Below, in pieces: positions 7,928-30,534 of a stretch of DNA of 64,000 nucleotides. A program made the translations under genes and the position numbers. The DNA is from Ancylobacter tetraedralis. GTDB lineage: Bacteria > Pseudomonadota > Alphaproteobacteria > Rhizobiales > Xanthobacteraceae. Position 1 is the stretch's first letter; every line of letters begins with the position of its first letter. The notes beneath the pieces are model-generated. The model was given only the letters and a program-made list of their open reading frames with translations, ran no database searches and was not told the origin of the DNA. Location: contig NZ_JACICD010000002.1 in NCBI RefSeq assembly GCF_014195655.1, positions 558,001 through 622,000 on the forward strand. The letters run 5' to 3'.

Positions 7928-7987
7928 CAGGCAGTTCCTGCCGCGCGCTTGCACGCGACGCGATGCCGGGATCGGCAGGGAAATCCG

Positions 7988-9268
7988 ATGCTGTTCTATC
8001 TGATCCTATTCGTCGAACTGATCATGCTCGCTGAGCTGATGGTGCGCATTCGCCTGTTGACGTCCGCTCATCTCATTCTGATGTATATTATCCTGTCCCA
8101 GATCGTTTTCTGGTCGGCGGACTGGCTTGGCTACGAGGAACTTGTCGATGGGCTTCCGTCGTCATTTCTCTATTTCACGACAGAAGGAGTGCTGTTTTAT
8201 TTTGCGTTTTTCATATTGTTTTATCTATCGACTGTCGGAATAAAGATAAAGAATATAACAAAAATCGTTGACGATATCAGGAATTCCATAAACTCGGCCA
8301 GAAGTATACAATATTACATATTTATATTTTGTGTATCTTTCATAATAATAGACTTTATTGCGATAGATAAAGATGTTTTGTGGAAAAATTACCGATATCT
8401 ATTCATTGGTGGCGGAGAGTCTCTTATCTATTCGAATCCGATCACGCGGATCGCCCATTCGACAACGCCGATCCTCGCGATCGTCTCGGTTTTCGGCTTC
8501 TTCTCCAACCTGTTCGGCCGGAATTTTCGTTGGGCAATGCTGTGGTTCGTCCCTGCGCTGTGGATGGTCGCCTATGCCACGGCGTCGGCGTCGCGCCTTT
8601 CCGCCATGCTGATGTTCGTGCCGATCGTGCTCGGCATCGTCATGCTGCGCCGAGGCCGTCTGCTGGTGGGCATCGTGTTCGGCCTCGCGGCTGTCATGGA
8701 GCTGGGGGCCGCCCTGTGGGGCCGAGGCAATCTCGAATTCGGCATCTCCGCCATCCCGACCATGCTCGGCGGGGCTCTGTCGGAAGGGCTCGATCTCAGC
8801 GATTACAGCCTCAATCTCTTCCAGGGAATTTTCGTGACCAGCGATTCCCTGATGATCGGCGGAAACTTCTCGGATCGGTACAGCCTTCTGTCGATGTCGC
8901 CTTTCCCCTCCTTCATCGACGGCTTCAACAACATCCTCGAATCGGATCAGATCCGGCTTCATCTGTTCGTGCCGATGAGCGCCCTGGCCGAGGTGATCCT
9001 GTTCGGATGGCCGTACGCCGTGGTTTTCTTCGGGATCTTTGCCTATACCGTGCGGCTGTCGATCCGGCTCTCGCGAAAAAACGGCGTGCTCTACATTCTC
9101 TTTACGCCCTATGTGTTCCTCCTGTTCGTCATCGCCAACGCCTATCCGACGCGGAACGTGTTCCGGCAGTTGGTCTATGTCCTGATCCTCTCGGTGATCG
9201 CCAGCCTGTTCGTGGGGTGGCTGGGGCGCAGAAAGCAGGCCGCGCCGGGGGGCTTGCGGCGGAGGTAA
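7988..9268 (+). CDS. Polytopic membrane protein, probable Wzy-type oligosaccharide polymerase
   Basis: Start ATG 7988 follows GGCAGGGAAATCCG; the protein is 426 residues. It is strongly hydrophobic with roughly ten to twelve membrane segments, beginning LFYLILFVELIMLAELMV. A long loop (about residues 255-340) lies before the last helices, the layout of O-antigen/exopolysaccharide polymerases. No sequence motif proves the function; the call rests on topology and location in a polysaccharide locus that otherwise lacks a polymerase. Bases about 8190-8430 are far more AT-rich than the surroundings and use ATA and AGA codons freely, suggesting recent acquisition of at least this part. Confidence 0.72.
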   Translation: MLFYLILFVELIMLAELMVRIRLLTSAHLILMYIILSQIVFWSADWLGYEELVDGLPSSFLYFTTEGVLFYFAFFILFYLSTVGIKIKNITKIVDDIRNSINSARSIQYYIFIFCVSFIIIDFIAIDKDVLWKNYRYLFIGGGESLIYSNPITRIAHSTTPILAIVSVFGFFSNLFGRNFRWAMLWFVPALWMVAYATASASRLSAMLMFVPIVLGIVMLRRGRLLVGIVFGLAAVMELGAALWGRGNLEFGISAIPTMLGGALSEGLDLSDYSLNLFQGIFVTSDSLMIGGNFSDRYSLLSMSPFPSFIDGFNNILESDQIRLHLFVPMSALAEVILFGWPYAVVFFGIFAYTVRLSIRLSRKNGVLYILFTPYVFLLFVIANAYPTRNVFRQLVYVLILSVIASLFVGWLGRRKQAAPGGLRRR

Positions 9269-10506: not shown

Positions 10507-11688
10507 TCAGGAGCGCGTGAGCGCCTCGCGCAGGAACGCATCGGACGATTGCCGCAGCGCGGCGAGCTTTTCCCGCACAGGGCCGTAGTCGATCGGCGTT
10601 CGCGCGAGATCGCGGGCCCGATCCGGGGCGCCCTCGACGAGCAGGCGGTCCATCAGCCCCAATTGGCCGAGCAGCGAGGTGAAGCGATCGCCGCCGCGCT
10701 CGCGGTTCATCATCGACACGAAGTTCTTCTCGAACAGGATCGCGAAGACCGTGCCGTGGAAGGAATCGGTGAGGATGTAATCCGCATCCATGAAATCCCG
10801 CAGCCAGTTCGGCACATCCCGCACCTTCCGGCCGGCATCCGCGGTCAGCAGGCTGAACGTGTGATTCGGCCCGAGCGCCTCGGCGATATCCGTCCGCACG
10901 CGGATCGTGTGGGGCGTGGGGTCGAGCAGATATTCCAGAAACAGCTTGCCACGCCGCTGCACATGCGGCGCAGCAATGGCCTTGAACAGCGCGGGGTCGA
11001 CGAGCAGCGTGGGGTCGAGCACGGTTCGCGCATCCGAGCGCCCGAATTCGGACTGGCAGATCGACACGCCGGACATTTCGCGAACCGAAACCGCGTCGAA
11101 CTGCGCGAGGAGTGGAGCCACCCGCGGCGTCATTTCCGGGAACCGCCAATCCCCCCGACCGAACGAGGCGGCATAGGAAATCTTGCGGATGCCGGGCGAC
11201 GCGGCGAAGCCGAGGAAATAGTCCTCGACCGCGCGATTGGGCAAATAGTCGGCGCGCCAGACCTGATCGCTGCCGACCACGACCGCGTCCAATTCAAGAG
11301 CCTCTGTCGCCGCGGCGAGTGCCTCCGAACTGTAGAGCGGGCCGGATGTGCGGGGCATCTGGGCACGCAGGAACGGGCGGTGCGCCAGGGCGCGCCGGTC
11401 GAGGGCGGCGGCCCGGCTGAAATACGCGACCCGTCGCATGAGGCCGCCCACGCCGGACGACGCACGCTCCGTCCAGGGTTCCAGCGTCTGGCTCAGCGAC
11501 AGAATGCCCGGCAGGCTTCGGGCGACAGCGAGGGTGGTGCGGCGACCCCGCTTCATCGTCGCCGATCTTTCCAGCAGAGTGACCTCATGGCCGCTCCGGG
11601 ACAGGTGGTGGTAAAGGGACACTGCCTGCAGCATGCCGCCATAATTGATGCTCAGGGGAAGCGTCAGTAGTCCGATGCGTTGAGCCAC
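10507..11688 (-). CDS. Polysaccharide pyruvyl transferase family protein
   Basis: The family (PF04230, which includes WcaK) adds pyruvate ketals to polysaccharides. The protein starts canonically as AQRIGLLTLPLSINYGGML if GTG 11688 is used, giving about 393 residues. An ATG at 11787 would add 33 residues of low-complexity character. Supporting segments are VVGSDQVWRADYLP, FGRGDWRFPE, VSVREMSGVSIC, VLDPTLLVD and the conserved TDSFHGTVFAI. It lies leftward between two rightward genes, so it has its own promoter in 11689-11987. The pyruvyl acceptor is unknown. Confidence 0.85.
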   Translation of the reverse strand: MAQRIGLLTLPLSINYGGMLQAVSLYHHLSRSGHEVTLLERSATMKRGRRTTLAVARSLPGILSLSQTLEPWTERASSGVGGLMRRVAYFSRAAALDRRALAHRPFLRAQMPRTSGPLYSSEALAAATEALELDAVVVGSDQVWRADYLPNRAVEDYFLGFAASPGIRKISYAASFGRGDWRFPEMTPRVAPLLAQFDAVSVREMSGVSICQSEFGRSDARTVLDPTLLVDPALFKAIAAPHVQRRGKLFLEYLLDPTPHTIRVRTDIAEALGPNHTFSLLTADAGRKVRDVPNWLRDFMDADYILTDSFHGTVFAILFEKNFVSMMNRERGGDRFTSLLGQLGLMDRLLVEGAPDRARDLARTPIDYGPVREKLAALRQSSDAFLREALTRS

Positions 11689-11987
11689 GGGGCCCGATCC
11701 TGTCGTGTTGAGCGTGGAGGTAGGGTCCGGAAGGATAGAGGATCGGGTCCGCGGATCATAGGTGGCGCGGGCGATGGACCGCCGCATTCACCGCCTGCGG
11801 TTTCATTTTCGGCACCCGGATGTCCGCGACGTGGCGTGGGATCGTGGACGTTTCGGGAGGGAACCATCCCGAACGGGCCTTGGCTGAATAGCCAATCCGG
11901 AATGGACGATGGGCGCTGCCGCGCGACCATTGCCAAGCCCGGCAGACCCCCGCATAAGGCGGCGCTGGGTCAGTGGGAGCGAGGTGT
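11689..11987. other. Divergent promoter region, pyruvyl transferase / galE
   Basis: About 300 bases lie between the leftward pyruvyl transferase and rightward galE. No supported gene or repeat is present. The end of the region has GGGAGCGAGGTGT directly before galE, a usable ribosome binding site. Confidence 0.4.
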
Positions 11988-13001
11988 ATGGAACGGACGG
12001 GTCGCAACGTGCTGGTCACCGGGGGCGCCGGCTATATCGGCTCCCATGCCTGCAAGAGGCTGGCGGCGGCCGGCTATGTGCCGGTGACATTCGACAGTCT
12101 GGTCACGGGATGGGAGGAGGCCGTGCGCTTCGGCCCGTTCGAGCCGGGTGACCTCGCGGACCGTGCGCGGCTCGACGAAGTGTTCGCCCGCTGGCAGCCG
12201 GTGGCGGTCATGCATTTCGCCGCGCTCAGCCAGGTGGGCGAATCGATGAGCCAGCCCGGGCGCTACTGGCGGGCCAACGTGCTGGGCACGCTCAACCTGA
12301 TCGAGGCGGCGGTCGCGGCGGGTTGCCGCGACATCGTCTTCTCCTCGACCTGCGCCACCTATGGCGACCATGACGGGCTGCTGCTGGATGAGGATACGCC
12401 GCAGCGCCCGCTCAACGCCTATGGCGCCTCCAAGCGCGCCATCGAGGACATGCTGCGCGATTTCGGGGCGTCACATGGCGTGAACGCGGTGATCTTCCGT
12501 TATTTCAACGTGGCGGGCGCGGACCCGGACGGCGAGATCGGCGAGTGGCACCGGCCCGAGACCCATCTCATTCCCATCATCCTCGAGGTCGCCACCGGCC
12601 AGCGTCCCTCCCTCAAGATCTATGGCGACGATTATGCCACGCCGGATGGCACCTGCGTGCGCGACTACATCCATGTCGGCGACCTCGTGGAGGCGCATGT
12701 GCTCGGCCTCCGCTGGCTGGAGGCCGGCAGGGGCAGCCGCGTCTTCTGTCTCGGCAGCGGGCATGGGTTCTCCGTGCGCGAGGTGATCGAGGAGGCGCGG
12801 CGGGTGACCGGGCACGCGATCCCGGTCGAGACAGCCCCGCGGCGGGCCGGCGACGCGGCACGGCTGGTCTGCGGCAGCCGGCGGGCCGTGGAAGAGCTGG
12901 GTTGGCAGCCGCAGCGCACGGATCTCGCCTCGATGATCACCGATGCCTGGCGCAGCCCCCGCGGCGTCGAGGAATTCCGCCGCCGCCTGTCGTCGACCTG
13001 A
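11988..13001 (+). CDS. galE: UDP-glucose 4-epimerase
   Basis: Interconverts UDP-glucose and UDP-galactose, supplying galactosyl units for the polysaccharide. From ATG 11988 (preceded by GCGAGGTGT) the protein is 337 residues, the normal GalE length. Motifs are VLVTGGAGYIGSHACKRL, HFAALSQVGESM, the catalytic SSTCATYG with YGASKRAIEDM, YFNVAGADPDGEIGE and the PDGTCVRDYIHVGDL block. A longer start at 11973 is possible. It stands alone between leftward genes but clearly belongs to the sugar-nucleotide supply of this locus. Confidence 0.95.
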   Translation: MERTGRNVLVTGGAGYIGSHACKRLAAAGYVPVTFDSLVTGWEEAVRFGPFEPGDLADRARLDEVFARWQPVAVMHFAALSQVGESMSQPGRYWRANVLGTLNLIEAAVAAGCRDIVFSSTCATYGDHDGLLLDEDTPQRPLNAYGASKRAIEDMLRDFGASHGVNAVIFRYFNVAGADPDGEIGEWHRPETHLIPIILEVATGQRPSLKIYGDDYATPDGTCVRDYIHVGDLVEAHVLGLRWLEAGRGSRVFCLGSGHGFSVREVIEEARRVTGHAIPVETAPRRAGDAARLVCGSRRAVEELGWQPQRTDLASMITDAWRSPRGVEEFRRRLSST

Positions 13002-13040: not shown

Positions 13041-13130
13041 CTCAGGTCTTGCCGTTGCCTCAGGTCTTGCCGTTGCCTCAGGTCTTGCCGTTGCCTCAGG
13101 TCTTGCCGCCGTCTCAGGTCTTGCCGCGCC
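13041..13130. repeat. 18-bp tandem repeat, five units, spanning the flippase stop codon
   Basis: The unit CTCAGGTCTTGCCGTTGC occurs three times perfectly (13041-13094), then twice with changes (13095-13130). On the minus strand each unit contains AAGACCTGA, i.e. Lys-Thr-stop, the last codons of the flippase gene. The actual stop is in the last, leftward-first unit. The repeats therefore look like serial duplication of the gene's 3' end. Confidence 0.9.
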
Positions 13131-14580
13131 GCTGGATCATGCCGAACAGGAACCGTTCGGCGCCATCCGGCCGTCCGGCGAGCCACCACAGCCCCAGATG
13201 CGTCGCGACATAGACCAGCATGCCGGCGGCGATGATCAGCCCGAGCTCCACCACCTGCGCCAGGCTGCCCGTCATTGGCGGCAGGCCGAGCTTTAGCGCC
13301 AGCACGGCGCCCGCCATGATGCACGCGCTGGTGAGGCTGCGCCACGCATTGACGATCTGCTGCAGCACGGAGAGGCGCAGGAAGCGGCGCCCGAGCATCA
13401 AGGTCATCAGGATGATCGCGAAGCCGCTGACGGTGCGGGCGATGATCGCCCCCAAGAAGCCGTAATACCACGCGCCCACCAGCGTCACCGGCAGCCGCAT
13501 GAGGAGATTCGCGACCTCGCGCACCACCAGCACGCGCGGCTGGGCGAGCGCCATGGCGAGCGAGAGCATCGGCAGGTAGAGCACCTGCAGCGCGGCCACC
13601 GGCGCCATCCACACGACAGCTGAAATGGCGGCATCCCAGTTCGGCCCGAGCAGCAGCGGCATCAGCCGGTCGGCGACCGCCGACATGCCGAAGCCGAAGG
13701 GCAGAACCGCCATGACCAGCAATTGCTGGCCCTTGAGATAGGCCGCGCGCATGCGTTCCGCGTCGCCATGCAGGCGCGAGAAGCCGCCGAACATGGTCTG
13801 CATGATGGGAGTGGCGAAGGCATAGGTCGTCATCGAGGAGATGTCGCTGCCGACCGTGTATTGCCCGAGCTGGGCCTTGCCCAGGATATAACCGACGAGA
13901 AAGCGGTCGGACTGCAGGTTGACGGTCGAGACGATCCGCGAGGTGGTCATCCAGCCGGCGAAATGCAGGATGCTGCGCGCGCCTTCGAGCCGCAGCCGGG
14001 GGCGATAGGGCGCGATACGGTAGCTGTAGCAGGTGGAGATCACCTGAGCCACGAACTGGTTGGCGATCAGCGCCCAGTAGGAGCCCGTGCCGTAGGCGAG
14101 AGCGATCGCGATCACCAGCCCGCCCAGGCGCCCCATGATCTGCAACTGCGCGGTCGGCCGGTATTCCAGCCGGTGCAGGAAGTGCACCATGGCCGGGCTC
14201 GCCAGGCTGTTGACGAACGGGATGAGCGACATGGCGCAGAGCAGCAGCGCGAGACGATGGTCGTTGTAGAGCGCCGCAATCGGAAAGGCGCAGGCCAGGA
14301 TGATGAACATCACCAGCAGGCCGCGCAGCAGGTTGAGCGTGAAGGCGGTGTCGACGTCACCCGGCTCGATGACCTTGCGCTGGACCAGCACGTCACCGAC
14401 GCTCAGTTCCGTCACCGCCCCGACGATCAGCAGCACCGAGGCGGCCAGCGCCACGAGGCCGAAATCGGCCGGCGTCAGCAGGCGCGCCATGATCACCAGC
14501 GAGATCACGTCGACGAATTTGACCACCAGTTGCAGGGCGGTCAGAAGCGCCGCGCCGAGGGCAACCTTATGTCCGATCAT
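13114..14580 (-). CDS. Wzx-type lipopolysaccharide/exopolysaccharide flippase
   Basis: A 488-residue polytopic protein of the MVF/PST exporter family, predicted to flip the lipid-linked repeat unit across the inner membrane. The N-terminus reads ALLTALQLVVKFVDVISLVIMARLLTPADFG as consecutive conserved blocks. AAASVLLIVGAVTEL, DVLVQRKVIEPGDVDTAF and about twelve to fourteen hydrophobic segments follow, as in WzxC-like proteins. The gene is the last of a leftward run that includes ugd and the ThDP-enzyme pair, after a 273-nt gap. Its 3' end is built of 18-bp repeats. Confidence 0.9.
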   Translation of the reverse strand: MIGHKVALGAALLTALQLVVKFVDVISLVIMARLLTPADFGLVALAASVLLIVGAVTELSVGDVLVQRKVIEPGDVDTAFTLNLLRGLLVMFIILACAFPIAALYNDHRLALLLCAMSLIPFVNSLASPAMVHFLHRLEYRPTAQLQIMGRLGGLVIAIALAYGTGSYWALIANQFVAQVISTCYSYRIAPYRPRLRLEGARSILHFAGWMTTSRIVSTVNLQSDRFLVGYILGKAQLGQYTVGSDISSMTTYAFATPIMQTMFGGFSRLHGDAERMRAAYLKGQQLLVMAVLPFGFGMSAVADRLMPLLLGPNWDAAISAVVWMAPVAALQVLYLPMLSLAMALAQPRVLVVREVANLLMRLPVTLVGAWYYGFLGAIIARTVSGFAIILMTLMLGRRFLRLSVLQQIVNAWRSLTSACIMAGAVLALKLGLPPMTGSLAQVVELGLIIAAGMLVYVATHLGLWWLAGRPDGAERFLFGMIQRRGKT

Positions 14581-14853: not shown

Positions 14854-16611
14854 CTATCGTCCCATCAGCTTCTTGACCATGTTGACGCCGTCCGTGCCGA
14901 GCATGTCCTTGGCCAGCTGCTTGACGCCATGCTTGACGGCATCGGCCTTGGGTCGCTTCTCGATATTCTTGATGGTCTTCAACGCATCGCTTTCGAGATC
15001 GGCATCGGTGAACACCTCGAACAGCAGCGGCTTTGCCGACGCGGTCGGCGAGAGGAAGCGCTCGTGCACCGCCTCGAACCCTTCCTTGCTCTCGGCGGAG
15101 ATGTAGTCGAAGCCGAGATTCTGCGCGTAGTTCTTCACGAGGCTGCGCGACTGCGTGCCGAAATGGCCGGACGCGGCCACGAAAACATTGGCGTCTTCGC
15201 CGAGAGCCGAGCCCGGATGGGCATATTGGGTGAATTCGGTACCCTTGCCATTATTGACCAGAAGGATGCGGATATTCGACCCGACATGGCGGTTGCCGAG
15301 CACGTTCATGTCGTAAAAGAAGGCGAGATCGCCGATCACCAGGAAATACAGCTTGTCCTTGTTCGCAAGCGAGGCCCCGATAAAGGCGGAGAGGCAGCCA
15401 TCAATGCCGAAACCGCCGACATTGGACGCGGAGGTGACATGCGGCGGCAGGTCGAAGTAATTCCAGGTCCGCAGGCTGTTGAGGATGCCGAAATGGATCG
15501 TCGCGTTCTCCGGAAGGCGATGCGCCATCCGTGACGCCAGCCACGCATTCGAGAAGGGCAGTTCCGGGAGATGGGCCCGAACCTGTTGCAGCTTCTCCCG
15601 GCAGGTGGCGAGATAGCTGTTTTCGGTAGCGGAACCCGTCTCGGCATAATGCGCGAAGAACGAGGTTTCCGGCATCTCGAAGACATAGCGCAGCTTGCGG
15701 AAGGCATCGCGGATCTCGCCATCCGGGCTGACGCGCCAGACCTGCTTGCCCGAGGCCTTCAGCGTGTCGTAGTCGCCGCTGATTTCGCCGATATGGATCA
15801 TGACGTCGGCCGCCATCTCCGCCGGATCGAACATGTCCTGGCCGGCGGCGAGGGCGAAGTGGATGCCATGCGTGCCGCGATAGCCGCTGGTGTGGTCGCA
15901 CAGCACCACCGCGTTGTTGGCGGCGCAGAAACGCTCCAGCGCGTCCGTCTCCGCCGGCGACCAGGTCGCGTGCGCCCCGACGAACACCGCCACCTTGCCC
16001 GAGAGCGGGGGAAACACGTCGGTGGGGGTGATGCGGTCGATCACCCGGTAGGCCGGCAGGGTCTTCACGTCGAAGGTGCGGGCGTAGTTGGTTGGCAGGT
16101 TGATGTGCACCGGCCCGCCGCCGTGGCGCTTGAGCGCCAGGATGGCCTGGTTGACCTTCATCTCACAGTCCCAGAGGTCGTCGGCATCCTTCACGACCGG
16201 CAACTGGACGCTCAGCTTGGCGATGTCGTTCGGGATGGAACTGCGATCGATGATCTGCGCGACATGATGCCCGACCTTGGCCTGGATCTGGGTCGAGGTG
16301 ATCGCGAGCACCGGCAGCTTGCGATAATAGGCCTCGGTCAGCCCGGGCCCATAGTTTCGCGACGCCGTGGCGCCGGTGCAGCTCAGGACGACCGGCTCGC
16401 CCAGTTCGGCCGCCAGCCCGCAGGCCATATAGGCCGCCGAGCGTTCGTCGACGCAGGAATAGACGGTGAAGAACGGATCGCTCTGGATGCTCACCACGAA
16501 AGCCATGTTCGTGGTGCCCGGGGAGGCGATGACGTGCCTTATGCCGCTATTCTTCAGGAGATGGATAATGACCTGAACGTTCTTCTCGGTTGTGTAATGC
16601 CGCATATGCAC
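14854..16611 (-). CDS. MenD-like thiamine-diphosphate-dependent enzyme of a polysaccharide locus
   Basis: A 585-residue protein (ATG 16611; ATG 16605 also possible) with full ThDP-enzyme architecture. An N-terminal pyrimidine-binding domain carries the catalytic Glu in VDERSAAYMACGLA (Glu56). A central domain follows, then a C-terminal diphosphate-binding domain with GDLAFFYDMN ... VNNGKG, closely like MenD. The MenD substrate motif SPGSRS reads SPGTTN here (residues 30-35), losing the Arg that contacts isochorismate. The substrate is therefore probably different. Its only tightly linked partner is an NAD-dependent sugar-type epimerase/dehydratase ending 9 nt upstream. I infer C-C bond formation or decarboxylation on a modified sugar or its precursor; this is unproven. 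Confidence 0.75.
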   Translation of the reverse strand: MHMRHYTTEKNVQVIIHLLKNSGIRHVIASPGTTNMAFVVSIQSDPFFTVYSCVDERSAAYMACGLAAELGEPVVLSCTGATASRNYGPGLTEAYYRKLPVLAITSTQIQAKVGHHVAQIIDRSSIPNDIAKLSVQLPVVKDADDLWDCEMKVNQAILALKRHGGGPVHINLPTNYARTFDVKTLPAYRVIDRITPTDVFPPLSGKVAVFVGAHATWSPAETDALERFCAANNAVVLCDHTSGYRGTHGIHFALAAGQDMFDPAEMAADVMIHIGEISGDYDTLKASGKQVWRVSPDGEIRDAFRKLRYVFEMPETSFFAHYAETGSATENSYLATCREKLQQVRAHLPELPFSNAWLASRMAHRLPENATIHFGILNSLRTWNYFDLPPHVTSASNVGGFGIDGCLSAFIGASLANKDKLYFLVIGDLAFFYDMNVLGNRHVGSNIRILLVNNGKGTEFTQYAHPGSALGEDANVFVAASGHFGTQSRSLVKNYAQNLGFDYISAESKEGFEAVHERFLSPTASAKPLLFEVFTDADLESDALKTIKNIEKRPKADAVKHGVKQLAKDMLGTDGVNMVKKLMGR

Positions 16612-16620
16612 CTCCCACTA

Positions 16621-17685
16621 CTAGTTCCCGGCGCTCATATATCGGCAAACCGAATATTTTACTGCATTTTTCATGCCAGACACTTCGCTCAAGCTCATGC
16701 GCTCACGCGTGAAACGGTCTTTGACCCCTTCGCGCCGCCAGTCGATAGCCAGGAAGCGGGGGCTCTTCAGGAATGCCGTCAGGCAATCGCGCAGGCCCTC
16801 GCGCGGCGTCACGAAATCACCGCTGTCGATGAGCGTGTCGATCTTGCCCGTGTCGAAAACCCGGTTGTAGAGCCGGTCATACCGCACCTGGGCCGGCGCC
16901 GGCGACCAGGCGAGCGTGTCCGGAAGATTCTGCAGCACGACCTTCGGTTTGCGGCCGAGATGGGTCTCCAGCACCTCGACATAGAGGTCCAGCACGTCGC
17001 TCCAGAGGATCGGGTTGCGCCCTGCCATGTTGAAGGCCTGCCCCTGCGCCTTCGGGTTGCCGATGGTCGCGGCCATGGCGCGGGCCACGTCCAGCCCGTA
17101 GGTCAGCGTCGACTGGCGCGCGCAGATGTCCCTGGAGAACAGGATGGTCCGCCCGTGCAGCGCCCGGTAGAGCCAGTGCTCCTTTTCGAGATGGCCGAGC
17201 TGCAGCCGCTCCTCGCCATAGGTGATGTAGGGGCGGATGATGGTCCAGTTCTGGCGGCCGGAATCCATCAGCCGGTTTTCCTGGCGCGCCTTGGTCAGGG
17301 CGTACTCGTCCGTGGCCAGGTAGTCCTTGTCCGTCGAGGCATCGAGAAGGCGCGGCGAATCCTCGGTGATGGGACGGTCCGAGCCGGCGAATACCCGCGC
17401 CGAGCTCAGGAACACGTATTGCGCGGTGGAGGACAGGAACCGGTCCGCCTGCGCGGAAAAGCTCTGCGTCGTGTAGACCATGAAGTCGACGACGCAATCC
17501 CATCGCTCTTTCAGCAACTCACCGACGAAAGCGGGATCCTGCGCATCCCCCCGGATGTAGCGCACCCGGCCCTTGCTGCCTTCGCGGCTGCGCGAGGTGA
17601 CGGCGATCTCGAATCCCCGGTCGTCAAGCAGCTTGACGAGGTGATTGCCCATAGCCCCCGTGCCGCCAAGAATCAGGACGCGCAT
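16621..17685 (-). CDS. NAD-dependent epimerase/dehydratase (SDR), partner of the ThDP enzyme
   Basis: A 354-residue extended SDR beginning MRVLILGGTGAMGNHLVKLL, a Rossmann motif with Gly-Gly-Thr-Gly. VDFMVYTTQSF, FLSSARVFAGSD and the YALTKARQENRL segment (YxxxK) follow, then IIRPYITYGEERL. It may oxidise, dehydrate or epimerise a nucleotide sugar. It is transcribed leftward and the ThDP-enzyme gene follows after 9 nt, so the two form a unit. The last about 30 codons and the junction are AT-richer than the neighbours. The substrate cannot be assigned. Confidence 0.8.
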   Translation of the reverse strand: MRVLILGGTGAMGNHLVKLLDDRGFEIAVTSRSREGSKGRVRYIRGDAQDPAFVGELLKERWDCVVDFMVYTTQSFSAQADRFLSSTAQYVFLSSARVFAGSDRPITEDSPRLLDASTDKDYLATDEYALTKARQENRLMDSGRQNWTIIRPYITYGEERLQLGHLEKEHWLYRALHGRTILFSRDICARQSTLTYGLDVARAMAATIGNPKAQGQAFNMAGRNPILWSDVLDLYVEVLETHLGRKPKVVLQNLPDTLAWSPAPAQVRYDRLYNRVFDTGKIDTLIDSGDFVTPREGLRDCLTAFLKSPRFLAIDWRREGVKDRFTRERMSLSEVSGMKNAVKYSVCRYMSAGN

Positions 17686-17887: not shown

Positions 17888-19216
17888 TCACGGCGCGGCG
17901 GGCGTCAGATGTCCGCGGCCGATCCCGACATATTTGAAGCCGCGGCTGATCAGGTCGCCCGGCGGGTAGATGTTGCGCAGGTCGACCACGATGGGGCTCC
18001 GGAGCACCTGCTTCAGCCGGTCGAGATCGAGCGCGCGGAAAGCATCCCATTCGGTGACGATGACGAGCCCGTCCGCGCCCTCCGCGCATTCATAGGGGCC
18101 GCTGGCATATTCGACACTGTCGGGCAGCACCTTGCGCGCTTCCGCCATGCCGACGGGATCGAAGGCACGCACTTTCACGCCGCGGTCGAGCAGCGACTGC
18201 ACGATGTTGATCGCCGGGCTGTCGCGCATGTCGTCGGTATTGGGCTTGAAGGTGAGGCCGAGCACCGCCACCGTCGCCCCGCGCGGGGGCACGTCGAGCG
18301 CCTCCAGCACGCGCCGGCCCATGGCGGCCTTGCGGCTCTCGTTCACCGTCGTCACCGTCTCGATGAGGCGGGTGGGCGCGCCGGCCTCCTGCGCCGTGCG
18401 CATCAGCGCCAGCGTATCCTTGGGAAAGCAGGAACCGCCATAGCCGGGCCCGGCATGCAGGAATTTCGACCCGATGCGCCCGTCGAGCCCGATGCCGCGC
18501 GCCACTTCCTGCACATTGCCGCCGACCTTCTCGCACAGGTCGGCCATCTCGTTGATGAAGGTGATCTTCATCGCCAGGAAGGCATTGGCGGCATATTTGA
18601 TCAGTTCGGCGGTGTTGCGCTCGGTGAACAGGATCGGCGCGGCGTTGAGCGAGAGCGGGCGGTAGAGCGCGGCCATCACCTCGCGGGCGCGCGGGTCGTC
18701 GGTGCCGATCACCACGCGGTCGGGTCGCTTGAAATCCTCGATCGCCGCGCCCTCGCGCAGGAATTCGGGGTTGGACACGACGGCGATGTCGGCCTCCGGC
18801 GCCGCCTCGGCGATGATGTGTTCGAGGTCGGACCCCGTGCCCACGGGTACGGTCGACTTGGTGACGACCACCGTGAAGCCTTCCGCCGTGCGGGCGATCT
18901 CGCGCGCGGCGGCGTGCACATAGGAAAGGTCGGCATGGCCGTCGCCGCGTCGCGAGGGGGTGCCGACGGCGATGAACACCACATCCGCGCTGCGCACCGC
19001 CTGGGTCAGGTCGGTGTCGAACTGGAGCCGCCCGGCGGCGACGTTGCGGCGCACCAGATCCTCAAGCCCCGGCTCGAAGATGGGTATCTCGCCCTGCTTG
19101 AGGCGCTCGATCTTCGAAGCGTCCTTGTCGATGCAGGTCACTTCATGTCCGAAATCGGAGAAGCAGGTGCCGGAGACGAGGCCGACATAGCCGGTTCCGA
19201 TCATGGCAACGCGCAT
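17888..19216 (-). CDS. ugd: UDP-glucose 6-dehydrogenase
   Basis: Oxidises UDP-glucose to UDP-glucuronate with two NAD+. The 442 residues are normal length. Motifs are MIGTGYVGLVSGTCFSDFGH, VFIAVGTPSRRGDG, VTKSTVPVGTG, SNPEFLREG, then KYAANAFLAMKITFINE. The catalytic cysteine sits in GYGGSCFPKDT near residue 260. The C-terminal LGLTFKPNTDDMRDSPA block is also present. It heads the leftward run toward the SDR, ThDP enzyme and flippase genes, 202 nt before the SDR start. Glucuronate would make the polysaccharide acidic. Confidence 0.97.
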   Translation of the reverse strand: MRVAMIGTGYVGLVSGTCFSDFGHEVTCIDKDASKIERLKQGEIPIFEPGLEDLVRRNVAAGRLQFDTDLTQAVRSADVVFIAVGTPSRRGDGHADLSYVHAAAREIARTAEGFTVVVTKSTVPVGTGSDLEHIIAEAAPEADIAVVSNPEFLREGAAIEDFKRPDRVVIGTDDPRAREVMAALYRPLSLNAAPILFTERNTAELIKYAANAFLAMKITFINEMADLCEKVGGNVQEVARGIGLDGRIGSKFLHAGPGYGGSCFPKDTLALMRTAQEAGAPTRLIETVTTVNESRKAAMGRRVLEALDVPPRGATVAVLGLTFKPNTDDMRDSPAINIVQSLLDRGVKVRAFDPVGMAEARKVLPDSVEYASGPYECAEGADGLVIVTEWDAFRALDLDRLKQVLRSPIVVDLRNIYPPGDLISRGFKYVGIGRGHLTPAAP

Positions 19217-19577: not shown

Positions 19578-20714
19578 ATGCCTTTTGGATTTTCCGCGCG
19601 CAGATCTTCGTTCGCCGCCCGCCTCGGGCGATGGCTCGGCGCGCTCGCGCTCGGCCTCGTCGTGCAGGCATCCCCCGCGATCGCGGATATCGCGCTGAAG
19701 GACGTGACCGGGCGCGAGGTGCATCTGGCCGCGCCGGCGCAGCGGCTGCTGATCGATGACGGGCGCTTTCTGATCGCCCTGGCGCTGATCCATCCCGATC
19801 CGGTGAGTGTGGTGGCCGCCTGGCCGCGCGACATCAACCGAATCGGCGCGGCGACCTTCGCGGCCTATCAGGCGAAATTCCCCGCCATTGACAGCCTCGC
19901 CAAGGTGGCGAGTTCGGCCGGCTCGCTCTCGGTCGAGCAGGTGGTGGCGGCGCGGCCGGACCTCGCGGTGTTCTCGCTGGGCTCGCAGCCCTCGGATGAG
20001 GAGCGCGCCCGCATCGAGGCGGCCGGCATCCCCGTCGTCGTGATCGACTTCTTCGTCCATCCGCTCGCCAATACCGAGCCGAGCCTGCGCCTTCTCGGCG
20101 CGGCGACGGGACGGACGGCGCAGGCCGAGGACTTCCTCGCCTTCCGCCGCGACCATCTCGATGCCGTGCGCGACGCCCTGGCCGGGCTGACGGCGGCGGA
20201 GCGTCCGCGCGTCTTCCTTGAGCCGCACGCCGCCATGACGGCCGATTGCTGCAACTCGCCCGGCAGGGGCAATGTCGGCGAGATCATCGAGGCGGCGGGT
20301 GGAACCAATATCGGCGCGGCGGTCATTCCGCGTGCCTTCGGCAAGCTCAACCTCGAATATGTCATCGCCCAGGACCCGCAGGTCTATATCGCCACCGGCG
20401 GCAGTCACATGGAGGGCACTGCCGGGCTGCTGATCGGGCCGGAATACAGCCCTGCCCGTGCCCGCGAGACGCTGCAGCGGGTCATTTCGCGCCCCGGATT
20501 CGCCGGGCTCGCCGCCGTGCGCGACGGGCGGGTGCATGGCCTCAGCCACCAGCTGCTCAATTCCCCGCTCGATCTCTTCACCGTCGAGATCCTCGCCACA
20601 TGGATCCACCCCGAGCGCTTCAAGGGGCTCGATGTCGGCGAGACGGTCGCGCAGGTGAACCAGCGCTTCCTCGCGGTTCCCATCCAGGGGCCGAACTGGA
20701 TCGATCTTCCCTGA
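19578..20714 (+). CDS. Periplasmic substrate-binding protein, iron-siderophore ABC transporter
   Basis: A 378-residue cluster A-II (FepB/FecB/BtuF-like) binding protein with an N-terminal signal (hydrophobic GALALGLVVQ, cleavage likely after AIA at 36). ALKDVTGREVHLAAPAQRLL, VEQVVAARPDLAVFSLG and AAGIPVVVIDFF are family hallmarks. The C-terminal lobe follows. First in the siderophore operon, it would capture the ferric catecholate in the periplasm. It would deliver it to the FecCD-type permease and ATPase encoded convergently at 30591-32440. There are internal Cys (DCCNSPGRGN), unusual for this family. Confidence 0.88.
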   Translation: MPFGFSARRSSFAARLGRWLGALALGLVVQASPAIADIALKDVTGREVHLAAPAQRLLIDDGRFLIALALIHPDPVSVVAAWPRDINRIGAATFAAYQAKFPAIDSLAKVASSAGSLSVEQVVAARPDLAVFSLGSQPSDEERARIEAAGIPVVVIDFFVHPLANTEPSLRLLGAATGRTAQAEDFLAFRRDHLDAVRDALAGLTAAERPRVFLEPHAAMTADCCNSPGRGNVGEIIEAAGGTNIGAAVIPRAFGKLNLEYVIAQDPQVYIATGGSHMEGTAGLLIGPEYSPARARETLQRVISRPGFAGLAAVRDGRVHGLSHQLLNSPLDLFTVEILATWIHPERFKGLDVGETVAQVNQRFLAVPIQGPNWIDLP

Positions 20715-20776
20715 TGCGTGCCGGCCGCCGGGGCCGCCGCGCATCTCCTCCCCGCTTTCCTCAACGGAGAAACGTC

Positions 20777-21976
20777 ATGTCGACCGCCTCTTACGCCCGG
20801 TCCCGCCTCGGGTTCCTGCAATCCGCCGCGCTCGCGGTGCTGGCACTCGCCGCCTGCAGCGGCGCCGCCTTCGCCGATCCGGAATTCGTGAGGTCGGCCA
20901 AGCCGGGCGAGGGGCTGTACGAGATCGTCTACAGCGCGCCGCTCGGCCGCGTCTATGTCGCCGCGGCGGGCGCGCGCGGCGCGAAGGAGACCTTCGTGCT
21001 GGCGCTCGATCCGGTGACTCTCGAGACCCGCGAGACGATCGCGCTGGGCGACGACCCGGTGTTCGGCCTCGGCATCAACAACAAGACCAGGACGCTCTAT
21101 GGCACGCAGACCCGCGACGGCGCGCTCGCGGTGATCGACCTCACGACCGGCAAGGTGGTGGCCAAGATCGCCAAGGGCGAGAAGGCGCATGTGCGCGAGG
21201 TCGCCGTCGACGAGGCCAATAACCGCGCCTACGTGACCGTCACCGGCCGCCGCGACACGCCGTCCTCGGTGTGGGTGGTGGACGGAGCCCGGAACGAGGT
21301 GGTCGACACGATCGACAACCTGCCCGGCAGCGTCACCGGCATCGCGGTCGATGCCAAGGGCAACCGCCTGTTCCTTTCGGCCATGGAGAGCAACCAGGTT
21401 CATGTGGTGGACCTCGCGACCAAGCAGGTGAAGAGCTTCCCCTCGGGCGGCGAGGGTGCCATCAACCTCGCCTATGACCCCTCCAGCGACCGGATCTTCG
21501 TGGCGCATCAGGGCAGCGGCGAAGTGGTCGCGCTCGACGCCCGGGATGGCACGATCGTCAAGGAGATCCCGACCGGCGGCGGGGCGCTCGGCGTCGCCAT
21601 CGATGCCGGCCGCTCCATCCTCTACGTGGCCAACCGCACCGGCGGCTATGTCACGCTGGTCGACACCAAGACGCTGGAGCCGATCGCCAATGTGGTCACC
21701 GGCTCGGCGCCGCAGACGGTGGCGGTCGATGCGGCGAGCGGCAATGCCTATGTCACCAACAAGCTCAAGGTCGTTGCCCGGCCGCGTCCGCCGGCACCGC
21801 CCGCCGGCGCCGCTGCGGGCGCCACACCCGCGCCGCAGCCGACCTCGGCGCCCGCAGGCGCTGCCCCGGCAGGCGCTGCTCCGGCCGGCGCCCCTCCGGC
21901 CGGTGGGGAGGCGCGCGCCCGCCCGGTGCCGCTGGTCGATCCGTTCGGCGACACGGTCGTGCTGATCAAGCCCTGA
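20777..21976 (+). CDS. YncE-like beta-propeller periplasmic/lipoprotein
   Basis: From ATG 20777 (CGGAGAAACGTC upstream) the protein is 399 residues. It has an N-terminal export signal: LAAC at 24-27 fits a lipobox, but cleavage after AFA is an alternative. The body is built of about seven propeller blades with repeats such as VIDLTTGKVVAKIAKG, VTGIAVDAKGNRLFLS and LGVAIDAGRSILYVAN. A low-complexity Pro/Ala tail with PAGAAPAGAAPAG repeats follows. E. coli YncE is iron-responsive and linked to a TonB receptor. Placement in a siderophore operon supports a role in iron handling; its exact job is unknown. Confidence 0.82.
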   Translation: MSTASYARSRLGFLQSAALAVLALAACSGAAFADPEFVRSAKPGEGLYEIVYSAPLGRVYVAAAGARGAKETFVLALDPVTLETRETIALGDDPVFGLGINNKTRTLYGTQTRDGALAVIDLTTGKVVAKIAKGEKAHVREVAVDEANNRAYVTVTGRRDTPSSVWVVDGARNEVVDTIDNLPGSVTGIAVDAKGNRLFLSAMESNQVHVVDLATKQVKSFPSGGEGAINLAYDPSSDRIFVAHQGSGEVVALDARDGTIVKEIPTGGGALGVAIDAGRSILYVANRTGGYVTLVDTKTLEPIANVVTGSAPQTVAVDAASGNAYVTNKLKVVARPRPPAPPAGAAAGATPAPQPTSAPAGAAPAGAAPAGAPPAGGEARARPVPLVDPFGDTVVLIKP

Positions 21977-21996
21977 GCGCGAAGCGGAGACGGACC

Positions 21997-23286
21997 GTGT
22001 CGATGAGCGTCGTTGCCGGCGGAGGCGCACGTATGCCCGAGATTGCGGGGCAGGCGGCCGAGGAGCGCGCCGAGGAGCGCGCGGGCTTCGCGCCCGCCTT
22101 GCCCTTCGCGCTGGTGTCGAGCGGCGAGACCCTTGTCGGCAAGGGCTGCCTCGGCCTCGTGGCCGAGGGAGATGAGCCGCTCGGCGCGCGGGTGCGCGCG
22201 CATCTGGCCGCCAGTGCCGCCTTTCGGGGCCCGGCGCCGGATATCGTGGTCGGCGCGCTGCCCTATGAGCCGGGCGCGCCGGCGCATCTGTTCCAGCCGG
22301 CCGAACTGTCGCGCAGCGCGGGGCGGGCCTGCTTCGCCGCCGCCTTTCCTCCGCCGGCGCTGGTGCGGCCGCCGCCGGCCCGCCCGCCGCATATGTGCAT
22401 CGCCGCCGAACCCCCACTCGCCGCCTATCGCGCGGCGGTGGCCGAGGCGCTGGTCCGCATGCAGGCAAGCGAAGGCGCGCCGATGGGCGAGGTTCTGCGC
22501 AAGATCGTTCTCTCGCGCAGCCTGCGCCTGTCCAGCGACCGGCCGATCGATGCCAGCACGCTGCTGCGGGCGCTGGCGCGGGACGCGGGCGTCACCGCCT
22601 TCTGCGTACCGCTGGCCGGCGCGCCGCAAACGCCCGGCCGCGCGCTGGTCGGCGCGACGCCGGAACTGCTGGTCGCCCGGCAGGGCACGGTCGTCACCTC
22701 GCATCCACTCGCCGGCTCCGCCCGGCGACGGCGCGAAGCGAGCGCCGACCGCGCCGCCGCGCAGGCCCTGCTCGCCTCGGACAAGGACCGGCGGGAGCAT
22801 GGGGAAGTCGTCACCGCCATTCTCGACCAGCTGGCGCCGCATTGCGTTGACCTCGGCACGCCGGTCGGTATCGGCCTGACCGCGACCGCGAGCATGTGGC
22901 ACCTGGGCACCCGCATCACCGGCCGCCTGCGCCGGACCGAGCTTTCCGCCATCGATCTCGCGGTGCTGCTGCATCCCACGCCCGCCGTCTGCGGCACCCC
23001 GCGAGCGTTGGCCGCTCGCGCGATCGCCGAGCTGGAGGGCTATGACCGCGGCTTCTATTCCGGCGCGGTCGGCTGGTGCGACGGGGCGGGCGACGGCACC
23101 TGGCATGTCGCCCTGCGCTGCGCCGAGGTCGCGGGGCATGAGGCGCGGCTTTATGCCGGCGCGGGCATCGTGCCGGGCTCGGATCCGGTCTCGGAGGGCG
23201 AGGAAACCTCCGCCAAGTTCGCCGCCATGCTGCAGGCGCTCGGCATCGACGAGGATGGCCGCCCGCTGACGGAGGACGGCGCGTGA
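21997..23286 (+). CDS. entC: Isochorismate synthase
   Basis: Converts chorismate to isochorismate, the first step to 2,3-dihydroxybenzoate. The 429-residue protein begins at GTG 21997 (or ATG 22003). It carries the chorismate-binding-enzyme core: [19 protein letters not shown] with the general-base Lys, [43 protein letters not shown] and [13 protein letters not shown]. Its TGA overlaps the GTG of the next gene by 4 nt, showing translational coupling. The DHB genes that follow rule out a menaquinone role. Confidence 0.94.
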
Positions 23287-24920
23287 GGAAGCTGGAGCAG
23301 AGCTGGCCGGCGGAGGCTGCGGCGCGCTATCGCGCGAGGGGCTATTGGCGCGGCGAGACCTTCACCCGCGTGCTGCGCGACCGGGCCCGTGAGCGGCCCG
23401 ATCATGTCGCGGTGGTCGGCGGCGGCGCGCGCTGGAGCTTTGGCGAGCTGGAGGCGCGCGCCGAGCGCCTCGCCCGCGGCTTCCTCGCGCGGGGCCTTGA
23501 GCCGGGCGACCGGGTGATCGTGCAGCTGCCGAACATCCCGGAATTCCTCACCGTCGTGTTCGCCCTGTTCCGCGCGCGGCTCATCCCGGTCTTTGCGCTG
23601 CCGGCCCATCGTCTCGTCGAGATCGCCCATTTCGCCCGCACGGCGCAGGCGCGCGGCTATGTCGTCGCCGAACGGCACGAGGGCTTCGACTATCGCACCC
23701 TCGCGCAGGAGCTTCTCGGCGAGGTGCCGGATATCGCGCATGTCGTGGTGGTGGGCGATGCGGGGGACTTCACGGGTCTGGAAGGGCTTCCCCAAGGCGG
23801 GGATATCGACCTGCCCGAAGATGCCGACCCCTCCGATGTCGCCTTCCTGCAGATTTCCGGCGGCTCGACCGGCCTGTCCAAGCTCATCCCGCGCACCCAT
23901 GACGACTATATCTATTCGTTCCGCGCCAGCGCCGAGATCTGCAAGCTGACGCCTTCCAGCGTCTATCTCGCCGCGCTTCCCGTGGCGCATAATTTCCCCA
24001 TGAGCTCGCCCGGCGTGTTCGGCGCGCTGTATGCGGGATCGCGCGTGGTGCTGAGCCCCTCGCCGAGCCCGGAAGCGGCTTTTCCGCTGATCGAGCGCGA
24101 GCGCGTCACCATCACCGGCCTCGTGCCGCCGCTGGCGCTGCTGTGGCTGCAGGCGGCGCCGACCACCCGGCACGACCTCTCCTCGCTGGAGGTCTTGCAG
24201 GTGGGCGGCGCCAAATTCCTCCCCGAATCCGCCCGACGGGTGAAGCCGGTGCTCGGCTGCACGCTGCAGCAGGTATTCGGCATGGCGGAGGGGCTGGTGA
24301 ACTATACGCGGCTCGACGACCCGGAGGAGATCATCGTCTCCACCCAGGGCCGGCCGATCAGCGGGGATGACGAGGTGCTGATCCTCGATGATGCCGGTCA
24401 ACCCGTGCCTGAGGGCGAGGCGGGCCATCTCTTGACGCGCGGGCCCTACACGATCCGCGCCTATCACAATAATGACGGCGCGAATGCGCGTGCCTTCACG
24501 CCGGACGGCTTCTACCGCACCGGCGACGTGGTGAAGCGCATGCCCGGTGGCTATCTCGTCGTGCAGGGGCGGGCGGGCGACCATATCAACCGCGCCGGCG
24601 AGAAAATCTCCGCCGAGGAGATCGAGGACCATCTCCTCGCCCACCCCGCCGTGTTCGATGCCGCGGTGGTGTCGCTGCCCGACGACTATCTGGGCGAGCG
24701 CTCCTGCGCCTTCATCATCCCTCAGGGCGAAAAGCCCAAGGCGGCGGCGCTGAAGCTGTTCATGCGCAAGCGCGGCCTCGCGGATTTCAAGGTGCCCGAC
24801 CAGATCGTGTTCATCGAGGCGTTCGAGACCACGGCGGTCGGCAAGGTCTCGCGCAAGGAACTGCGCGCCGGCCTGCGCCGCCGTTTCCTTGAAAAGACGG
24901 AAGCGGAGGCGGGAGAATGA
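23283..24920 (+). CDS. entE: 2,3-dihydroxybenzoate-AMP ligase
   Basis: Activates 2,3-DHB as the acyl-adenylate and loads it on the aryl carrier protein. The 545-residue protein starts at GTG 23283 within the entC stop (GTGA). The EntE hallmarks are clear: [20 protein letters not shown] (the ATP-binding loop), [13 protein letters not shown] and [36 protein letters not shown] and the catalytic Lys near the end ([12 protein letters not shown]) follow. It overlaps entB by 4 nt. Substrate assignment is well supported by near-identity of these motifs and by context. Confidence 0.96.
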
Positions 24921-25567
24921 GCGCGCAGGTGAAACCCGGTCTGCCGGCCATCGCCCCTTATGCTCTGCCGCGCGCGGAGGAACTGCCCGTGCCCCGCGCG
25001 CCGTGGCGGCTGGAGCGCGCGCGCGCGGCGCTGCTGATCCACGACATGCAGAACTATTTCCTGCGCGTCTTCACGCCCGATGCCTCCCCCATCGCCCCGG
25101 TCATCGCCAATATCGCGGCGCTGGCGCAGGCCGCGCGGGGCTCGGGCGTGCCGGTATTCTACACCGCGCAGGACGGCGACCAGGATCGGCGCGACCGCGG
25201 CCTGCAGGCCGACCTCTGGGGGCCAGGCATGAGCTGGGCGCCCGAGCACCAGCCCATTGTCGGCGCGCTCGCCCCGCAGGCTGGCGATATCGTGCTGGTG
25301 AAACACCGCTACAGCGCCTTCCAGCGATCCAACCTGGAGACGCTGATGCGCGCGCGCGGCCGCGACCAGCTGATCATCTGCGGGGTCTACGCGCATATCG
25401 GCTGCACGCTGACGGCGGCGGATGCGTTCATGCGCGATATCGAGCCGTTCATGGCGGCCGACGCGCTGGCGGACTTCTCCCGCGCGAAGCACGACCTCGC
25501 CCTGTCCTATGTCGCCGACACGTGCGGCGTGCCGCTGACCAGCGCGCAGATCCGGGAGCAACTGTAA
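24917..25567 (+). CDS. entB: Isochorismatase (stand-alone EntB N-domain)
   Basis: Hydrolyses isochorismate to 2,3-dihydro-2,3-DHB and pyruvate. The 216 residues match the EntB isochorismatase domain: [14 protein letters not shown] with the catalytic Asp, [31 protein letters not shown] with the catalytic Lys, and [13 protein letters not shown]. coli EntB continues into an aryl carrier domain. Here the protein ends at TAA 25565-25567 and the carrier is a separate gene starting in the TAATG overlap. The break is clean, not a frameshift remnant, since the next gene has its own ATG. Confidence 0.95.
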
Positions 25568-25863
25568 TGGCCATCGAGCCCGCCGACATCCGGCGTATCA
25601 TTGTCCCAGCCGCGCCGATCACCCGCGAGAGGATGCGCGCGGACATCGCCAGGATGCTGCACGAGGACCCCGAGGCGATCGGCGGCGATGACAGCCTGAT
25701 GGATCTCGGCCTCGATTCCATGCGGGCCATGAATCTCGTGCTGGCCTGGAGCGAGGGCGGGCTGGAGCTGGAATTCGCCGAATTCGCGGAAACGCCCACG
25801 CTTGACGGCTGGTGGGCACTCATCCACGCCAAGCAGGCGGCACGTGGTGCACCCGGTGTCTGA
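25567..25863 (+). CDS. Free-standing aryl carrier protein
   Basis: A 98-residue phosphopantetheine carrier that starts at ATG 25567, overlapping the isochorismatase stop (TAATG). The 4'-phosphopantetheine attachment Ser is Ser51 in LMDLGLDSMRAM, as in the EntB C-terminal carrier. FAEFAETPTLDGWWALI resembles the helix that closes EntB-type carriers. It would receive DHB from EntE and present it to the condensation domain of the next protein. The separate carrier is a variation on EntB's fused form. Its 3' end overlaps the synthetase start. Confidence 0.92.
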   Translation: MAIEPADIRRIIVPAAPITRERMRADIARMLHEDPEAIGGDDSLMDLGLDSMRAMNLVLAWSEGGLELEFAEFAETPTLDGWWALIHAKQAARGAPGV

Positions 25864-29776: not shown

Positions 29777-30534
29777 GCGGCAAGGTCGCCCTCGTCACCG
29801 GCGCGGCCGGCGGCATCGGTGCCGCCGTGGTGCGCCGTCTGGTGGAAGAGGGCGCGCGCGTGGTCGCCACCGATGTGGAGGCCGAGCCCCTGCAGGCGCT
29901 GGCCGACACGCTGGGTGCGGCCGCCGTTCCCGCCTGCCTCGATGTGCGCTCCACGGCCGAGGTCGACGCCCTTGTGGCGTGGGTCGAGCGGGAGATCGGC
30001 CCCATCGACCTTCTCGCCAATGTCGCGGGCGTGCTGTCCCATGAGCCGGTGACGAGTCTGTCCGATGCCGAATGGGAGCGGGTGTTCGACATCAACGCCG
30101 CCGGCGTATTCCGCCTCTCGCGGGCGCTGGCGCGGGTGATGCAGCCGCGCCGGCGCGGCGCCATCGTCACCGTGTCCTCCAACGCCGCCGGCATTCCGCG
30201 CCACGCCATGGCGGCCTATGCCGCCTCCAAGGCGGCGGCGACCATGTTCACCCGCTGCCTCGGTCTGGAACTGGCGCCGCATGGCATACGCTGCAACATC
30301 GTCGCGCCGGGCTCCACGCTCACGCCGATGCAGACCGGCATGTGGGCCGACGGCAACGGCGCCGCGCGGGTGATTGCCGGCTCGCCGGAAACCTTCAAGG
30401 CGGGTATCCCGCTCGCCAAGCTGGCGACGCCGGAAGATGTGGCCGATGCCGTGCTGTTCCTGCTCTCGGAGCGGGCCGGCCACATCACCATGGCCGACCT
30501 CTATGTCGATGGCGGCGCGACGATGCGCGGGTGA
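29758..30534 (+). CDS. entA: 2,3-dihydro-2,3-dihydroxybenzoate dehydrogenase
   Basis: NAD-dependent oxidation of 2,3-dihydro-DHB to 2,3-DHB. The 258-residue classical SDR has [44 protein letters not shown], the catalytic Ser as [10 protein letters not shown] and the catalytic YxxxK as [22 protein letters not shown], a typical EntA segment, is also present. The ATG has AGAAGG upstream, within the synthetase 3' end, so translation is coupled. It is the last gene of the operon. Confidence 0.95.

Follow-up and report, generated by a model that had tools for sequence, protein, structure and literature searches.

A MenD-like enzyme and its partner reductase at the core of a sporadic polysaccharide cassette with a possible role in carbon-branched sugar synthesis

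The gene pair and its MenD-like enzyme

The window analyzed here, a stretch of 64,000 nucleotides from Ancylobacter tetraedralis, contains a polysaccharide locus in which two genes lie side by side on the minus strand. An extended short-chain dehydrogenase/reductase (SDR) gene (17685..16621) is followed after 9 nt by a gene for a thiamine diphosphate (ThDP) enzyme (16611..14854). Both open reading frames and their spacing agree with the original prediction, to which the strand is added. The SDR comprises 354 residues (Pfam Epimerase, 47.7 bits) and is a likely NADPH-dependent ketoreductase partner of the 585-residue ThDP enzyme, itself MenD-like and a likely carboligase. The ThDP gene starts with GTG, and the homologue in Ancylobacter amanitiformis begins two codons later. 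Proteins of A. amanitiformis are the closest to both (94% for the ThDP enzyme, 96% for the SDR). The genome carries one full-length copy of the ThDP gene, along with two further weak matches, which cover its first third at 25% and 23% identity.

Profile, sequence comparison with solved structures, and fold all place the ThDP enzyme closest to MenD, to which each of the first 50 Foldseek hits belongs; its nearest relatives are MenD and not YerE/JanthE. Both Pfam TPP_enzyme_N and TPP_enzyme_C score above cut-off. The TIGR00173 menD score is 178.0 bits, below the curated equivalog cut-off of 244.2. Residues expected to hold ThDP and its metal, Glu56 (in DERSA), Asp428, Asn453, and Asn454 (in GDLAFFYDMN and the NN motif), show no variation across the 58 sequences aligned, and the motifs are all present as originally described. 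The substrate motif of MenD, SPGSRS, is replaced by SPGTTN. In a HMMER alignment to Bacillus subtilis MenD (2x7j, the chain numbering of which is shifted by 24 residues), Arg32 becomes T34, which bears out the earlier claim that the isochorismate-binding arginine is lost. Arg106 becomes Q108, Lys299 becomes Y281, Arg428 becomes V398, and Ile489 becomes E459, while Arg409 is retained as R381 and Phe490 as F460; R381 and E459 are both invariant among the 58 sequences. Four of the five substrate-binding basic residues of the Bacillus enzyme are exchanged. Mutagenesis of B. subtilis MenD has been reported to show that Arg32 and Arg106 are critical for isochorismate, that Arg428 serves mainly 2-oxoglutarate, and that Arg409 serves both substrates (PMC2914249). 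With these MenD substrate residues replaced, even though the Arg409 equivalent is kept, the substrate pocket looks remodelled away from isochorismate. A model of the ThDP monomer (mean predicted local distance difference test, pLDDT, 87.6) superposes on MenD crystal structures with a root-mean-square deviation of about 17 Å, and therefore no active-site geometry was read from it.

The absence of other menaquinone genes, noted earlier for the window, extends genome-wide for the three genes tested: profile searches found no match to menA, and matches to menB and menC only below their curated cut-offs, with menE, menF, and menH outside the test. As judged from sequence, the ThDP gene is not menD, because it falls below the menD cut-off, four of the five basic residues are exchanged, and by their cut-offs menA, menB, and menC are not present; the earlier description of a MenD-like protein distinct from MenD is upheld. 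Several of the 120 listed database entries for its relatives are named MenD, and for those entries the name is probably wrong.

A recurrent cassette and its reductase slot

When one genome per species was scanned, 404 stretches proved to encode a ThDP enzyme relative, and the 80 best loci among them were retained. These loci were retrieved with an alignment of near relatives, and the tallies hold for that part of the family. Gene counts were obtained by searching with profiles the open frames that lie on the same strand within 4 kb, and cluster counts from coarse automatic gene calls; 63 of the 80 loci extend for 4 kb or more to each side. By record titles, which include metagenome-assembled genomes and may reflect some wrong binning, the loci span ten phyla, led by Bacteroidota (43), Pseudomonadota (23), and Bacillota (6). 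A flippase (wzx) subfamily is found in 67 loci, a carbonyl reductase in 75, and a protein of the PF04230 family in 61, with all three together in 51. Of the two cassette partners originally put forward, wzx is therefore borne out at the level of this subfamily and ugd is rejected, ugd-like genes being found in just 11 of the 80 loci; the PF04230 gene was found conserved instead. The prevailing gene order is wzx, reductase, ThDP enzyme, PF04230. Of the 63 loci flanked by 4 kb or more on each side, 61 have the reductase, and three of the five loci without it (L024, L064, and L066) lie at contig ends.

The ThDP/SDR pair is the core of a larger cassette, the distribution of which is sporadic. The ThDP family occurs in two of 398 Pseudomonadota genomes and in two of 30 genomes of the genus, the A. 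tetraedralis genome included in each case. When the extended SDR was searched in the same 398 genomes the same two were matched, with the gene adjacent to the ThDP gene in both, so that the proposed pairing within polysaccharide loci is sustained; in the second positive genome the flippase also adjoins the pair. The only plasmid record at E 1e-60 is Ruminococcus albus pRUMAL01, where PF04230, wzx, ThDP, and SDR genes lie side by side. This plasmid is typed as mobilizable, and its cassette has LicD genes and a gene of the cytidylyltransferase family as neighbors. A single Vibrio jasicida query, compared at the DNA level only, found no match to the SDR and ThDP genes in E. coli genomes, and gave two short matches to plasmid-borne PF04230 genes.

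Some Bacteroidales loci (L075, L076, L079, and L083; also L072 and L078) have flippase, SDR, and ThDP genes without a PF04230 neighbor, L083 having the ThDP gene alone. In L075, L076, L079, and L083 the same genes for PLD, GHMP-kinase, and DnaJ proteins recur beside the set, which lies outside any obvious polysaccharide locus. A protein of about 400 residues (cluster 17) stands beside the cassette in seven loci (L059, L072, L073, L075, L078, L079, and L088). Two members were scanned and had no Pfam match; by eye the protein shows a GxSxGVDS-like loop and Cys pairs, and from these features the protein is possibly a PP-loop enzyme.

The reductase slot is filled by members of three families: an extended SDR in 46 of the 80 loci, a classical FabG-like SDR (PF13561/PF00106) in 28, one locus having both, and an aldo/keto reductase (AKR; PF00248) in two. 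The prevailing gene order is seen with each type (30 loci with extended SDRs, 15 with classical SDRs, and one with an AKR). In the two AKR-type loci, L060 (4965-6654) and L082 (8577-10004), an extra small protein without a Pfam match, of 266 and 197 residues respectively, is encoded beside the AKR. On a quick tree of the ThDP enzymes with SH-aLRT support only (81 rows, 75 labelled), the reductase type changes at least 16 times; when only the starred branches are counted, 9 changes are still required for the extended type or 8 for the classical type. Because the type switches this often, the families look interchangeable, with carbonyl reduction as their common chemistry. Extended SDRs, classical SDRs, and AKRs all act on carbonyl groups with NAD(P)H, and all three are known to catalyze reduction. 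As three families occupy one slot, the SDR is most likely a ketoreductase, and its original assignment as an epimerase or dehydratase is unlikely.

The extended SDRs retain the expected nucleotide-binding and catalytic motifs, with G7, G10, and G13 (GxxGxxG) and Y128 and K132 (YxxxK) invariant in 44 aligned sequences; fold matches agree, and the model of the SDR has a pLDDT of 93.6. T30 and R32, the latter following strand beta2, are likewise invariant in the 44 extended SDRs, and an arginine after beta2 is present as xGR or TSR in all 26 classical SDRs compared, six of which were read by eye. An arginine at this position in SDRs fits NADP(H).

Proposed chemistry and competing explanations

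We put at about an even chance the reading that the pair is a conserved two-gene core of polysaccharide loci in which an acyl unit is joined to a carbonyl precursor and the resulting ketone is then reduced. The MenD-like enzyme would likely take the acyl unit from a decarboxylated 2-oxo acid and join it to a sugar or small precursor that bears a carbonyl group, and the partner reductase would likely reduce the new ketone with NADPH. The carbon-extended residue might then be built into a lipid-carried repeat unit by the transferases of the locus, perhaps with the PF04230 protein, and Wzx would export the finished unit. Acyl addition followed by ketone reduction is proposed because the same logic operates in C-branched sugar pathways (YerE, Pau7). 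In the synthesis of yersiniose, YerE is reported to move activated acetaldehyde, derived from pyruvate, onto cytidine diphosphate (CDP)-3,6-dideoxy-4-ketoglucose, and a passage of the same review singles out YerE-like enzymes as the one subclass of decarboxylases for which the use of isolated ketones is known (PMC12247030). The term MenD does not occur in that review.

Each of the known systems resembles the cassette in part. MenD, the SEPHCHC synthase, is nearest in sequence and fold and has the same ThDP/Mg site and the Arg409 equivalent, whereas the cassette enzyme falls below the family cut-off, lacks counterparts of Arg32, Arg106, Lys299, and Arg428, and sits in polysaccharide loci. In paulomycose synthesis, Pau11/Pau12 belong to another ThDP superfamily. 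There, as in the proposed cassette pathway, an acetyl branch at C-4, proposed to come from pyruvate, undergoes ketoreduction, shown for the AKR Pau7; the branching, however, is proposed for a two-protein complex, the product is an antibiotic rather than a polysaccharide, and the cassette reductase is mostly an SDR (PMC4753412, for the paulomycin steps). YerE-like lyases of yersiniose and erwiniose synthesis are, like the cassette enzyme, encoded in surface-polysaccharide loci, and are reported to transfer an acyl group from a 2-oxo acid to a keto-sugar (PMC12247030); the cassette differs in that no genes for keto-sugar supply are conserved within its loci, although the window itself has gmd. 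The cassette is best filed, provisionally, among ThDP-dependent carbon-branching pathways, as a putative variant with a different ThDP subfamily. No paper recognizable as a description of it was found in one open-access library, most subscription papers lying outside this coverage.

Several results weigh against acyl transfer followed by ketone reduction. No sugar-nucleotide pathway is common to the 80 loci (gmd-like genes in 7, galE-like in 11, and ugd-like in 11), and dehydratase-like clusters 8, 14, and 16 together reach 22 loci, the rest of each genome being outside this search. With no conserved supply genes within the loci, a keto-sugar acceptor is not evident, and for this reason the acyl unit may go to a common sugar nucleotide, to a sugar carried on a lipid, or to a small aldehyde. 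YerE-like enzymes form a different ThDP subclass from the MenD branch to which the cassette enzyme belongs. Two loci with full flanks, L071 and L083, yielded no reductase in profile searches within 4 kb. The reductase types are also clustered on the ThDP tree: labels shuffled 200 times gave a mean of 24.3 changes, and because no shuffle gave as few as 16, reductase type appears to be partly inherited. GMD-type SDR dehydratases likewise carry an arginine after beta2, as does the gmd product of the window, and this feature alone is therefore no proof of a reductase. Lastly, decarboxylation followed by aldehyde reduction would also fit the same gene set.

This last alternative, in which the ThDP enzyme does no more than convert a 2-oxo acid into an aldehyde by decarboxylation and the reductase makes from this aldehyde an alcohol, such as a hydroxy acid, that decorates the glycan, is the main rival, and we regard it as possible at perhaps one chance in four. 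Interchangeable reductases, AKRs included, suit aldehyde reduction too, and no acceptor pathway is conserved within the loci. Against it, no gene for activating a free acid (ligase or acyl carrier) was seen among the annotated recurrent clusters, small and rare clusters being unannotated, and MenD, the closest relative, is reported to be a carboligase (PMC2914249). A more specific decarboxylase, that of phosphonopyruvate, was rejected, no phosphonate gene being found among the annotated recurrent clusters. The order of steps could also be reversed, with the SDR acting first as an oxidase or epimerase to make a keto-sugar nucleotide that would then receive the acyl unit from the ThDP enzyme. 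This appears improbable: of the 80 loci, 28 have a classical SDR and 2 an AKR in the slot, and these families are not known to include nucleotide-sugar epimerases; the best NCBIfam match of the SDR, moreover, scores 22.9 bits where the cut-off is 400. A divergent MenD that still uses isochorismate, for menaquinone or off the siderophore pathway of the window, was already disfavoured and is very improbable. MenD is the nearest family, and an isochorismate synthase-type gene (21997-23286) does lie 4.3 kb beyond the SDR, inside a catecholate siderophore cluster; the sub-threshold TIGR00173 score, the replacement of Arg32 and Arg106, and the state of menA, menB, and menC all argue against it, and the neighbors conserved elsewhere are wzx, the reductase, and PF04230. 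Bradyrhizose was considered and dropped, as the literature search gave no pathway gene for comparison.

If the carboligation and ketoreduction reading is correct, the cassette signals a carbon-extended residue, so far undescribed, in the surface polysaccharides of many bacteria, adds a new ThDP carboligase to sugar chemistry, and points to polysaccharides worth solving by nuclear magnetic resonance. A bolder extension, which we hold only tentatively and consider rather unlikely, is that sugar C-branching was invented independently a second time, with this cassette. A carboligase derived from MenD would have spread between phyla in a cassette together with wzx, a PF04230 transferase, and an exchangeable ketoreductase, and would make an undescribed carbon-extended glycan residue. 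Reductase exchange would set the stereochemistry of the carbinol (as with 7R/7S in yersiniose A/B) and hence the surface antigen.

The PF04230 protein, the flippase, and neighboring genes

The wzx-type flippase of the window (13114..14580, minus strand; Pfam Polysacc_synt_3, 217.5 bits) is not matched by the cluster wzx profile, and so lies outside the subfamily found in most other loci. The PF04230 "polysaccharide pyruvyl transferase" gene (10507..11787, minus strand; PF04230 86.1 bits, cluster profile 335 bits) is related to the one that comes after the ThDP gene in other loci, with wzx and galE intervening here. In the profile search, the window and A. amanitiformis (L011) accordingly showed no member of the common flippase subfamily and a PF04230 gene about 3 kb further on. 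Known members of PF04230 are reported to transfer pyruvate from phosphoenolpyruvate (PEP), WcfO and CsaB acting on lipid-linked sugars (PMC6801904), and R306 of CsaB is identified as the PEP-site arginine (PMC10435577). Like the ketal-pyruvyltransferases CsaB, Pvg1p, and WcfO, the cassette proteins belong to this family and have the PEP-site histidine (CsaB H308), which is kept in all 58 full-length cassette members. CsaB and Pvg1p differ in having the arginine (CsaB Arg306/Pvg1p Arg337), whereas 55 of the 58 cassette members have Ser at this position and the other 3 have Thr; the anchoring alignment, to Pvg1p (5ax7), is weak (E 0.11), and WcfO was outside the comparison. The cassette PF04230 protein may, on these residues, use a donor other than PEP.

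Other genes of the polysaccharide locus include UDP-glucose dehydrogenase (ugd; 17888..19216, minus strand; TIGR03026, 459.4 bits), galE (11973..13001, plus strand; TIGR01179, 400.7 bits, above cut-off), gmd and fcl (both above cut-offs), three glycosyltransferases, and a 439-residue protein without a Pfam match (7949-9268). The enterobactin-like catecholate siderophore cluster occupies 19578-30534 on the plus strand. It encodes a periplasmic binding protein, the isochorismate synthase-type protein (above the TIGR00543 cut-off), a dihydroxybenzoate (DHB)-AMP ligase and a DHB dehydrogenase (both above cut-off), and an EntF-like single-module nonribosomal peptide synthetase with a thioesterase.
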